The notes under the pieces were generated by a model. That model saw nothing but the letters and a program-made list of their open reading frames with translations. It ran no database searches and had not been told where the DNA came from. A stretch of DNA of 20,707 bases from a virus: positions 1-20,707 of IMG/VR virus record IMGVR_UViG_3300020185_000309; one strand, given 5' to 3'. Position numbers and translations under genes: made by a program. Numbering within the stretch: the first letter of the stretch is position 1; each line of letters begins with the position of its first letter. Below, piece after piece: positions 2 to 5,293 of the stretch.

Positions 2-211
2 CAAACCGGCAAGTTCAGTGATCTTCCCAACGGGGATTCCAGCCATCTTACCTCGGCAAGTGATAGAATCCAACCAGCGTGAGCCAGTTGGAATCCATTC
101 TTTGACCTCGGTAGGATTGTCTTCATTAAGATCATGAGCGATGTTTAAGCCAACTTTTTTGTTGACAAACTTCTTCATTGCATTAATATCAATCTTACCT
201 GCTTTGGTCAT
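2..211 (-). CDS. uvsX: UvsX/RecA-type recombinase, N-terminal part (cut by window edge)
   Basis: Only the first 70 residues are inside the window, and the frame is still open at the edge. The stretch EWIPTGSRWLDSI followed by GIPVGKITELAGL matches the start of the RecA/UvsX ATPase core, just ahead of where the Walker A loop would lie. Proteins of this family coat ssDNA and drive strand exchange; in T4-like phages this supports recombination-dependent replication. The ATG overlaps the stop of the upstream lipoprotein gene (TAATG), and AAGGTGAAG upstream could serve as a ribosome site. It is the last visible gene of a chain clpP, lipoprotein A, lipoprotein B, uvsX. RecA and UvsX cannot be separated from the N-terminus alone; UvsX is preferred because gp32 and other T4-like genes are nearby. 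Confidence 0.85.
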   Translation of the reverse strand, partial: MTKAGKIDINAMKKFVNKKVGLNIAHDLNEDNPTEVKEWIPTGSRWLDSITCRGKMAGIPVGKITELAGL

Positions 212-405
212 TACTCTTCACCTTCTTCAGAGCCCTCTTCCGACTCTTCAGTTTCTTCGCCTGTTTCCTCTTCGGAACCTTCAGTTGCGGTGTCTTCTGC
301 TTCTTCAGCAGTTTCTTCGGTTGTCTCTTCAGTATCTACTGCTGTATCCAACTCTTCTTCTTTGTCCCCACATGCTAGGAACAGTGTCATTAATAAACTA
401 ATCAT
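211..405 (-). CDS. Small acidic lipoprotein B
   Basis: 64 aa. A very short hydrophobic leader (MISLLMTLFLAC) ends in a lipobox-like FLAC followed by GDKEEE, so Cys12 is a likely lipidation site. After Asp14 and Lys15 the mature part is almost entirely Glu, Asp, Thr, Ser and Gly, an unstructured, strongly negative tail. Start: ATG with AGGAG six bases upstream. It overlaps the end of lipoprotein A by 8 nt and its stop overlaps the uvsX start by one base, so translation is probably coupled. The leader resembles that of lipoprotein A, suggesting an old duplication. No function is recognised. Surface exclusion or an envelope role are guesses. It does not look like a classical Rz1 o-spanin, because it has no proline-rich tail and no inner-membrane spanin partner nearby. 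Confidence 0.7.
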   Translation of the reverse strand: MISLLMTLFLACGDKEEELDTAVDTEETTEETAEEAEDTATEGSEEETGEETEESEEGSEEGEE

Positions 406-637
406 TTGTTACTCCTTCGTTTGTATTAGTAGTTTGGTTTGAAGTCGCTGTGACTTCTGCTTTAGATTCTCCAGATGTGACACTAGTAGCATCTTTAGTA
501 ACTTCGATTGAAGCGTCTGTAGTTTTTTCATCTGTTGTCTCCAAAGTTTGTGTTTCAACAACTTGAGTTGCTGTAGTTGCATCTGTTGCAACCTCTTTCT
601 CTCCGCAAGCGAAGAGCATTAATAATAGTAACCTCAT
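398..637 (-). CDS. Small Thr/Glu-rich lipoprotein A
   Basis: 79 aa. The leader MRLLLLMLFAC is only ten residues before the Cys and ends in a good lipobox (LFAC, then GEKE). The mature part is a low-complexity Thr/Ser/Val/Glu/Asp tail with repeated short words such as TDAT and TTDE. The ATG sits in an ATGA overlap with the stop of the clpP-like gene and has a strong AGGAGGTAAC ribosome site. The Arg2 plus hydrophobic run is short for a signal peptide but matches lipoprotein style. Together with lipoprotein B this makes a tandem pair of phage lipoproteins between a protease gene and a recombinase gene. The function is unknown. Confidence 0.7.
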   Translation of the reverse strand: MRLLLLMLFACGEKEVATDATTATQVVETQTLETTDEKTTDASIEVTKDATSVTSGESKAEVTATSNQTTNTNEGVTND

Positions 638-1324: not shown

Positions 1325-2098
1325 TTATTCTTCAGACATGAACGCCGCGAAAGCTTTATCTACTGACTCACCTGTTTTCTTGTTATATTGTTGAGTCTCG
1401 TTAGAAGAGGACTCTGCTGAAGAGTCGGAGGACAGGTAACCATCCAGCAGAGTTTGCACTTCTTCCGAAGTCTTAACATCGAACAACTTATCAATATCAG
1501 GAACTGAGTCTAGCAACTGTTGGCAGTCTGCGATGCTATCGTCACATAAGATCGATGGACGACGGCGGGGTTGCAATGCTGTCTTTGGAAATGCACCAGG
1601 GCCTGAGGCCAGAGTGTAAGTCAGTTTAATGTCAGTTCCAGTTTCAGAATCTGTGATGTCACCGTAGTCAGGGTCCAACACGTATCCTAAAAGAGTTTCA
1701 TAAGCTGTTTTACCATAAGCCCAGATTTTTACACCATCGGCTTCATGACCTCTTACAAGAACAGGTGAATAATAACGCTTTCGCGCGAACAATTTCTTGG
1801 CTTCGTTTTTAAGGTTCTGATCATCAGATTGAGTTCCTTCTCGCCAAAGTTTTGATGCGAAGTCGCAGATGGCACATTCACCGCCATCATTTCGCTTGTT
1901 GCAGTAAATTCCAGGATTCTTTCCTACATTGTAGTGAAAGTGAAACTCACGGAACGGATCGCCATCCGCTGTTGGTAGAATACGAATGTTTTGGTCGCCT
2001 GCGCTTGGTTTCCACATTGTACTCTTGCGTCCGGAGGATTTCCCACCGTTTTTTGATTGTGCTAGCTTTGCAGCCATTTGTGTTAAGTTTAAAGCCAT
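1325..2098 (-). CDS. 32: gp32-like single-stranded DNA-binding protein
   Basis: 257 aa; T4 gp32 is 301 aa. The basic N-terminus (residues 9-30) precedes a core with the probable zinc ligands His53 or His55, Cys66, Cys75 and Cys78, a spacing very close to the His-Cys-Cys-Cys set of T4 gp32. The segment ARKRYYSPVLVRG matches the OB-fold region of the family. The C-terminus is Ser-rich and then acidic (AFAAFMSEE), as expected for the tail that recruits partner replication proteins. It coats ssDNA at the fork and works with UvsX and the polymerase. Start: ATG with TATAGGAG upstream. The gene has its own strong promoter (P1), a leader of about 100 nt and its own terminator, fitting high expression. 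The leader may carry an autoregulatory site. Confidence 0.88.
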   Translation of the reverse strand: MALNLTQMAAKLAQSKNGGKSSGRKSTMWKPSAGDQNIRILPTADGDPFREFHFHYNVGKNPGIYCNKRNDGGECAICDFASKLWREGTQSDDQNLKNEAKKLFARKRYYSPVLVRGHEADGVKIWAYGKTAYETLLGYVLDPDYGDITDSETGTDIKLTYTLASGPGAFPKTALQPRRRPSILCDDSIADCQQLLDSVPDIDKLFDVKTSEEVQTLLDGYLSSDSSAESSSNETQQYNKKTGESVDKAFAAFMSEE

Positions 2099-4085: not shown

Positions 4086-4892
4086 CTAGTTCTGAATATA
4101 GTGAGTGTAGTGCTTAGTGATGTAGAAATTGTGTTCGGAAGATCTCCAAATAGCAAAAGAAGACTCTCTTTCTTTGGAAATATTTTCACGGACAATTTGC
4201 TGACAAGTTGGCAACACTGTTTCATCATTATCCAAATCCTCTTCTTCTATATTCATATAATAACATGTCTCTGTAATGTTGTCAAGTGGAAAAAGCTTTT
4301 TTTCTTCAGCATCTTGTAACTTAGCGAGGCCAAGTGTTGATATTCTAGAAATATCTTTTGGCATATGAAGTCTACCAAAGTCAGCTTCTACGTTTGAGCA
4401 ATAAAACATGTTCTGAAGAGTTGAATAGATAAAGAAATTTACTTTTTCATAATAGTTTGATATTGGACCTGCTCCGTTTAGCGAGGTCATTGTTTTATTG
4501 TCTAAAATAAGCATTTCTTTTATCTTTCCAGATCTTGCATACTCTTGCAAGACATTGAAGTGTGTACGATGTCTCATCTTTTCTTCTCTAGTTGAAAACT
4601 CCAAGTCTGGTACTAAGTATACAACAGTTATTTGATGGTCCGGGAATGCCTCTAGGACACGCAATGATGCTCCGGCAACCTTACCAGACCCACATACAAA
4701 CAAAACGCCTTCAGAGTGAGCCTTGAGCCCTCTAGATGTCACCTTGACAGGATGCTCATCATACTCTTCAACAGTTTTTTGAGGTTGAAGACCTTCATTA
4801 TTATCAAAAACTATAACTTTATAATTTTTAGTATGTGGCTTGAACAATTTTACGATGTTCTTTCCCGCTTCGCCTAGACCTATTAAGATCAT
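4086..4892 (-). CDS. Divergent tubulin/FtsZ-like GTPase candidate
   Basis: 268 aa from the ATG with AGGAG six bases upstream; an ATG eight codons earlier lacks a site. N-terminal ILIGLGEAGKNIVKLFK then YKVIVFDNNE resembles the first strand, T1 loop (G-x-G-x-x-G-x-N) and second strand of FtsZ/tubulin. VLFVCGSGKVAGASLRVLEA (63-82) lies where the glycine-rich T4 loop belongs. VVYLVPDLEFSTREEKMRHR then MLILDN (residues 90-132) follows the FtsZ order of PFxFEG..R and the closing Asn of the guanine site. NVEADFGRL (167-175) may be the T7 catalytic loop, with one of its two acidic residues kept. Phage tubulins (PhuZ, TubZ) form filaments that position DNA or capsids. Assignment is by motif order only; another Rossmann-type nucleotide-binding protein is possible. 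The C-terminus is acidic and unlike FtsZ. Promoter P4 lies inside the gene. Confidence 0.6.
   Translation of the reverse strand: MILIGLGEAGKNIVKLFKPHTKNYKVIVFDNNEGLQPQKTVEEYDEHPVKVTSRGLKAHSEGVLFVCGSGKVAGASLRVLEAFPDHQITVVYLVPDLEFSTREEKMRHRTHFNVLQEYARSGKIKEMLILDNKTMTSLNGAGPISNYYEKVNFFIYSTLQNMFYCSNVEADFGRLHMPKDISRISTLGLAKLQDAEEKKLFPLDNITETCYYMNIEEEDLDNDETVLPTCQQIVRENISKERESSFAIWRSSEHNFYITKHYTHYIQN
4257..4285 (-). promoter_or_regulatory. Sigma70-type promoter P4, inside the tubulin-like gene
   Basis: -35 TTGACA at 4280-4285, a 17-nt spacer ending GACATGT, and -10 TATTAT at 4257-4262. It lies within the 3' third of the tubulin-like coding sequence and points to the 59-aa, 55-aa and 164-aa genes. 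It shares all features with the other four promoters, which makes chance unlikely. Confidence 0.75.
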
Positions 4893-4893
4893 T

Positions 4894-5100
4894 TTATTCT
4901 CCTGATTTTGTTGCATATAATATTGGTATTGTAACTATCTTTTCAGAGACAAAGATAAAAACTCTTATTGAAGGTAAGCTAATTTGTTCTGGGTATGGGA
5001 ACACTTCCAAAACAATTCCAAGATCTCCATTTTTATACCCAAATAGAGATCTTTTGTCCCAAGGACTGTTTGAAATATAAACAAGGTCACCGCTTACCAT
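4894..5100 (-). CDS. 68-aa small SH3/KOW-like protein B
   Basis: 68 aa. VSGDLVYISN, then YKNGDLGIVLEVFP, then a long strand-rich half (SIRVFIFVSEKIVTIPIL) suggest a small SH3-like beta barrel; the G-D-L-G-I-V-L-E pattern is typical of KOW/SH3-like phage proteins. It starts with ATG overlapping the previous gene by 14 nt and has only a weak ribosome site, so coupling to the previous gene is likely. It ends two bases before the tubulin-like start. No function is recognised. It looks like a paralogue of proteins A and C. Confidence 0.6.
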   Translation of the reverse strand: MVSGDLVYISNSPWDKRSLFGYKNGDLGIVLEVFPYPEQISLPSIRVFIFVSEKIVTIPILYATKSGE

Positions 5101-5293
5101 CTAAAACTTCGAACTCCTCTTGCCACAATGGCAATGCTGGTTCGAAACCTCCAATAATAACCCAAAATATATAATCTTTTTTTGTTATTAGTTCAATTTT
5201 AGTTATGATGCCGATGGAGCCTTTTGGTATACCAGAGGACTTCTCTTCCGTTACCACTATCAACTCTCCGACTTGGCACTTTTGTTTTACCAC
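5087..5293 (-). CDS. 68-aa small SH3/KOW-like protein A (GTG start)
   Basis: 68 aa. CQVGELIVVTEE, then IPKGSIGIITKIELITKKDY, then IFWVIIGGFEPALPLWQEEFEVL gives the strand pattern of a small SH3-like barrel, with the G-S-I-G-I-I-T-K turn common to KOW-like folds. The start is GTG, eight bases after GAGG, and overlaps the end of the polymerase gene by 7 nt. It is the first of three such small proteins in the operon. A role in tuning the polymerase or another replication factor is a guess from position only. Confidence 0.6.
   Translation of the reverse strand: MVKQKCQVGELIVVTEEKSSGIPKGSIGIITKIELITKKDYIFWVIIGGFEPALPLWQEEFEVLDGKR

Follow-up and report, generated by a model that had tools for sequence, protein, structure and literature searches.

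The question raised by this locus was whether an open reading frame lying beside a phage DNA polymerase gene encodes a divergent tubulin and, if it does, what such a protein might do there. The DNA analysed (the window) was virus record IMGVR_UViG_3300020185_000309, with a length of 20,707 bases, and the product of ORF 4086-4892 is referred to here as TUB. The features of the locus are listed in Table 1. An earlier sequence-only reading had proposed a distant, shortened relative of tubulin and FtsZ from the order of a few motifs and was silent on the strand, which is minus. All of the quoted motifs were located in the protein (GLGEAGKN at residues 5-12, CGSGKVAG at 67-74, VPDLEF..REEKMRHR, LDN at 130-132, and ADFGRL at 170-175). 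An alternative in-frame ATG at 4916 would give a TUB of 276 aa; the 268-aa start was favoured because the ATG at 4892 is preceded, 6 nt away, by AGGAG. Four pairs of near relatives gave dN values of 0.07-0.14, far below the dS values of 0.99-1.8, so the ORF is a genuine gene under purifying selection. The motifs are not a chance pattern, given >200 homologues in IMG/VR, the low dN relative to dS, and the conservation of N132 (57/57) and N152 (56/57).

Table 1. Coordinates of the TUB gene, its sequence elements and its neighbours in the window.
Feature	Coordinates	Strand	Comment
TUB gene	4086..4892	minus	Tubulin/FtsZ-superfamily protein, 268 codons + stop
Ribosome-binding site AGGAG	4899..4903	minus	6 nt ahead of ATG at 4892
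T1 loop GLGEAGKN (residues 5-12)	4857..4880	minus	G5, G7, G10 invariant in 57 members
T4-position loop CGSGKVAGA (residues 67-75)	4668..4694	minus	G68 57/57, K71 52/57
N132, first guanine-contact position	4497..4499	minus	Asn 57/57; aligns with Asn of FtsZ IPNDKLL
N152 in core helix H7, second guanine-contact position	4437..4439	minus	56 Asn + 1 Asp of 57; aligns with FtsZ H7 Asn/Asp
T7-position loop NVEADFGRLHMPKDISR (residues 167-183)	4344..4394	minus	Canonical acids not conserved
PolA-type DNA polymerase, polymerase domain only, 395 aa	5287..6474	minus	PF00476 E 2.8e-8, phrog_17 E 2.3e-15; constant upstream neighbour of TUB
Unknown-function protein, 88 aa	2665..2931	minus	Synteny; no significant Pfam match
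gp32-like single-stranded DNA-binding protein (SSB)	1325..2098	minus	PF08804 E 7.6e-14, phrog_1192 E 3.5e-29; constant downstream neighbour of TUB

The window covers part of the genome of a large phage with a contractile tail. Its minus-strand genes encode a tail sheath (Phage_sheath_1C), two tube-like proteins, a T4 baseplate protein, proteins of 784 aa (a probable tape measure) and 1493 aa, the PolA-type polymerase, TUB, the gp32-like SSB, and a ClpP-like protease; the tube and tape measure labels rest on position and size. The protease gene (634-1317, minus) is beside SSB in only a few relatives, and while PHROGs labels ClpP-like proteins as head maturation proteases, the window copy sits in the replication region. 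Two short ORFs at 211-637 (minus), Glu/Thr-rich or Thr/Ala/Val-rich with lipoprotein-like starts (LFLACG and LLMLFACG), are possible small lipoproteins. Two ORFs of 68 aa (4894-5100 and 5087-5293, minus) occur between polA and TUB solely in the subclade of the window and were judged by eye to be possibly SH3/KOW-like.

The fold of TUB was predicted with AlphaFold2 from a 38-sequence alignment (pLDDT 90.5, pTM 0.90), and the model was compared to the PDB using Foldseek. The 50 matches listed were all FtsZ, TubZ or tubulin, with 1fsz at the top (E 1.6e-10, probability 1.00). As a guard against one lucky model, a second was made from a separate alignment for the relative L121, which is 31% identical to the TUB of the window; this model (pLDDT 91.6, pTM 0.90) likewise had 50 listed matches, all FtsZ, TubZ or tubulin with probability 1.00 and led by Staphylococcus aureus FtsZ (E 5.6e-14). 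Both models have the two-domain architecture of a Rossmann-like GTPase domain, core helix H7 and a C-terminal domain, and the tubulin core order. The earlier reading would have been refuted by a model without that order or by a confident match to an unrelated Rossmann family, and neither was obtained.

Sequence evidence was weaker for single proteins than for the family. The TUB of the window alone had no significant match in Pfam, PHROGs or a phmmer search of the PDB, and no single member tested met the curated Pfam or NCBIfam cut-offs; the NCBIfam model that matched most single members was ftsZ (10/40, all under its cut-off). A TUB profile of 57 non-redundant members was compared to an FtsZ profile of seven sequences and matched it over 250 columns (E 5.7e-6, probability 85%), ahead of every control: the best of 16 other Escherichia coli proteins was MurD (E 0.0099), and reversed profiles gave 0.16 and 0.53. 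The TUB profile matched PhuZ at E 5.5e-4 and E. coli FtsZ alone at E 0.002. The clear signal needed all 57 non-redundant members, as less diverse TUB alignments matched FtsZ only weakly (E 0.009 and 0.0016). CetZ was sought by a plasmid search, which returned FtsZ and no CetZ. The alternative that TUB is an unrelated NAD(P)-binding Rossmann enzyme with a tubulin-like N-terminus alone draws on weak Pfam matches in some members (Sacchrp_dh_NADP down to E 1e-4, TrkA_N E 4e-5), but those matches span about 30-75 residues round one glycine-rich loop and are placed inconsistently, being N-terminal in some members and at residues 65-140 in others. Both models match tubulin-superfamily structures exclusively among the matches listed, the whole-length profile favours FtsZ, and the models contain core helix H7 as well as the C-terminal domain; the enzyme was discarded on these whole-fold grounds and is hardly credible. 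On the predicted fold first and the profile comparison second, TUB almost certainly belongs to the tubulin/FtsZ superfamily.

The order of elements in the TUB model is S1-H1-S2, a strongly reduced T3/H3, S4, T4 loop, H4, S5, H5, S6, H6, H7, T7 loop, S7, S8, H10, S9 and S10, with element names assigned by analogy with FtsZ. A gap of ~20 residues falls at the H2/S3 region of FtsZ in the global alignment of the two profiles, helix H9 is missing (the S7-S8 link is too short to hold it), and H8 is coil in both predicted models. The shortening that had been noted for this one protein extends to the whole family (265-298 aa), and so does the weak T4 loop: the signature GGGTG[SAT]G was found in 0/57 members, with CG[SA]GK in its place. 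The T7 loop, thought to hold a single acidic residue, is also altered throughout the family, with the FtsZ pattern N.[DN][FLY].D (NxDxxD) in 1/57 members. The one acid, D171, is itself not conserved; the two T7 Asp columns contain D14/V14/I12/E10 and S18/K11/N8 (n=57). Another set of residues is conserved there (P170, G173, H176, K179, then S182-R183-I184), and the bottom face is therefore still under selection. The guanine-contact roles of the positions corresponding to N132 and N152 are known from FtsZ and tubulin structures, and the Asn-to-Asp exchange seen once at N152 also occurs among FtsZ proteins. On the most economical interpretation, TUB retains guanine binding but not canonical hydrolysis, GTP binding and hydrolysis both being inferred from the residues.

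Relatives of TUB were collected by successive pattern scans of IMG/VR, which yielded 17, then 99, then 205 stretches encoding them. None was found in 50,697 phage records by tblastn with two diverged members as queries. The window PolA, which lacks a 3'-5' exonuclease domain, had no tblastn match at E 1e-5 in the same number of phage records and has >570 relatives in IMG/VR, which leaves the entire phage clade without an isolate. The phages with TUB are uncultured large contractile-tailed phages known solely from metagenomes. The sole TUB match among 84,980 species genomes was a candidate division WOR-3 MAG, in which a segment of the 'chromosome' (CP070664.1, 2243228-2260037) is a piece of the same phage clade with PolA, TUB, SSB and RecA. 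This fragment is bounded by runs of N and is probably a mis-scaffolded phage contig, with little information on the host. In one other locus (L225), the TUB gene is broken into two ORFs (124 and 139 aa) by a frameshift or a sequencing error.

The position of TUB beside a DNA polymerase, which the sequence-only reading had called unusual, is real and fixed: the order PolA-TUB-SSB on one strand was found in 86/86 distinct loci, with TUB downstream of PolA and upstream of SSB. In 37 of these loci the TUB ORF and the end of polA share 1-29 nt; in the non-overlapping ones, including the window, one or a few small ORFs separate the two genes. TUB was present in all 68 of the fetched PolA relatives that were parsed and had enough downstream sequence. 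A protein of 81-90 aa is encoded between TUB and SSB in most loci and is, with polA, the closest constant companion of TUB, making it a candidate partner. Past SSB, one locus (L017) continues with RecA, a 5'-3' exonuclease, a DnaB-type helicase and ribonucleotide reductase. Distances between TUB sequences correlate with those of PolA (Mantel r 0.92, 0/999 permutations) and of SSB (0.78), the pattern that vertical inheritance of a core gene would produce. Each related phage open to checking had the gene at this position, so the viruses of this group are probably dependent on an undescribed tubulin-like protein. Two isolates, Flavobacterium phage immuto and Microcystis phage Mel-JY01, have a diverged cassette with other genes in the TUB slot, and TUB thus marks a subclade. 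A 428-aa ORF in the slot of Mel-JY01 (L162:5598-6884) was considered as a tubulin and rejected, as it has an S-adenosylmethionine lyase domain (E 4e-10); it is possibly a counter-defence gene.

For the role of TUB, we propose a GTP-binding tubulin without canonical hydrolysis that organises the phage replication complex, a proposal given an even chance of being right, with polymerisation and function both inferred. TUB would bind GTP, for which there are no binding data, and would self-associate in the head-to-tail manner of tubulins, with the rebuilt T7 loop (PxxGxxHxPK) of each subunit set against the nucleotide bound by its neighbour. With the T7 aspartates missing, this contact would not be dissolved by fast hydrolysis, and the assemblies may be stable or switched by another factor. 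Made together with PolA, TUB could then organise the replication complex or its DNA within the cell, or anchor them there. The fold, the FtsZ profile, N132/N152, the conserved T7 set, the operon order, the overlap with polA, the RecA, exonuclease and DnaB genes further on, and the co-divergence with PolA were counted in favour. Against it, nothing shows directly that TUB binds or hydrolyses GTP, polymerises, or places DNA or capsids, no recognised DNA-binding adaptor is adjacent, and operon context by itself does not prove a role in replication. Whether filaments form can be argued both ways. In FtsZ, H8 and the T3 region are part of the longitudinal contact or of gamma-phosphate sensing; with a predicted coil at H8 and a truncated T3 region, TUB may no longer polymerise. 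A tubulin that hydrolyses poorly can nevertheless be a polymer, since the GTPase-dead PhuZ D190A still needs GTP to polymerise and forms stable filaments (PMC4244570).

The main rival is a non-polymerising, monomeric or dimeric nucleotide-sensing subunit that binds PolA or SSB, for instance as a processivity or regulatory factor. The constant adjacency to and overlap with polA, the co-divergence, the loss of H9 and of the T7 acids, and the coil at H8 all fit such a subunit, and its partners are plausible in that PolA is short and without the exonuclease domain; the nucleotide-contact residues and the conserved T7 set, however, exceed the needs of a pure scaffold. We know of no PolA accessory factor with a tubulin fold, and this rival is regarded as possible, if on the unlikely side. 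Phages attacking FtsZ are known, and a tubulin decoy that has a nucleotide face and lacks a catalytic T7 could cap or poison host FtsZ filaments and halt cell division. Such an antagonist of the host appears improbable: identity to FtsZ in structural alignments is merely about 10-13%, host contacts are not obviously mimicked, and TUB is locked into a replication operon and not among early host-takeover genes. Taking the GTP-binding organiser further, we tentatively suggest, at rather less than even odds, that TUB is an undescribed, widespread family and a core part of replication in a large uncultured clade of myovirus type. It would be a minimal tubulin using GTP as structural glue without canonical hydrolysis, and a replisome scaffold that needs neither a phage nucleus nor the PhuZ spindle.

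The phage tubulins that turned up in the papers searched are PhuZ and the TubZ group, which move DNA or bring it to a central position and still have a functional T7 catalytic site. TUB adds a second, separate set of phages, seen in metagenomes only, that carries a predicted tubulin as the fixed neighbour of its DNA polymerase, and suggests that the fold tolerates a reduction to about 265 residues along with the rewriting of its T4 and T7 signatures. The family is a natural experiment on which parts of the fold GTP binding and filaments require, and on whether a cytoskeleton organises replication in phages that lack a nucleus.

Among known systems, FtsZ is the closest in whole fold, in best PDB and best profile match (250 columns), and in the guanine-contact positions. 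TUB differs from it in identity (about 10-15%), in a shorter T3 region, in the absence of H9, in the loss of GGGTGSG and NxDxxD, and in its place in a phage replication operon, whereas FtsZ is in a division cluster. The best viral fold match in BFVD, A0A6J5RW92 ('FtsZ Cell division GTPase' of an uncultured Caudovirales phage; E 4.1e-11, TM 0.74), has 452 aa and 11% identity to TUB, and its FtsZ label is merely a database name.

PhuZ and phage TubZ, from phiKZ-type nucleus-forming phages, share with TUB a phage-encoded tubulin fold; PhuZ of phage Noxifer was also among the BFVD matches. They have 314-327 aa, a C-terminal tail and the catalytic T7 Asp (PMC3678025, PMC4244570), whereas TUB has ~268 aa without tail or catalytic Asp and is found in other phages and another gene context. 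The TUB profile is nearer to FtsZ than to PhuZ, for which the match is weak (E 5.7e-6 versus 5.5e-4), and no PhuZ-specific similarity was detected by tblastn with two members (0 matches in the 50,697 phage records, which include >100 PhuZ genes). Two contigs with TUB relatives (G001 and G002, 184-192 kb, maybe incomplete) had no match at E 0.1 to 201phi2-1 chimallin or PhuZ, or to RNAP beta; G001 had one marginal RNAP beta' match (48 residues, E 0.07). On this evidence from two relatives, the phages with TUB do not look like the nucleus-forming lineage. These differences bear on a dynamic spindle like that of PhuZ or TubZ with a normal GTPase cycle, which the shared superfamily and the phage origin would allow. 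It is very unlikely, given that the T7 catalytic acids are absent across the family, that the two contigs gave no PhuZ, chimallin or convincing phiKZ-type RNA polymerase match, and that TUB is far shorter and without the tail used by PhuZ.

The TubZ of Bacillus plasmids also matches in fold (E 1.1e-9 for the TUB of the window and 6.9e-13 for L121) and is longer, with 379-410 residues in solved chains. Plasmid TubZ is part of a partition system with the DNA-binding adaptor TubR and centromere repeats. No TubR-like adaptor was recognised near TUB, where the small ORFs have no significant Pfam match, although one could be present unrecognised, and there is no tandem array close to the gene. The jumbo-phage and marine-phage surveys consulted mentioned only phiKZ-type and TubZ tubulins, and searches of open-access papers for other phage tubulins or FtsZ turned up no account of the TUB family. 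Divergent prokaryotic FtsZ-like families have been described, namely FtsZl1 and FtsZl2, with a proposed role in membrane remodelling, and some FtsZ-tubulin homologues without functional motifs have been noted (PMC2875224); these are a precedent for deep branches and motif loss in the superfamily, but they are cellular genes, whereas TUB is phage-encoded. With no specific similarity to either, in different phages and at a shorter length, TUB is a new family, neither PhuZ nor TubZ.
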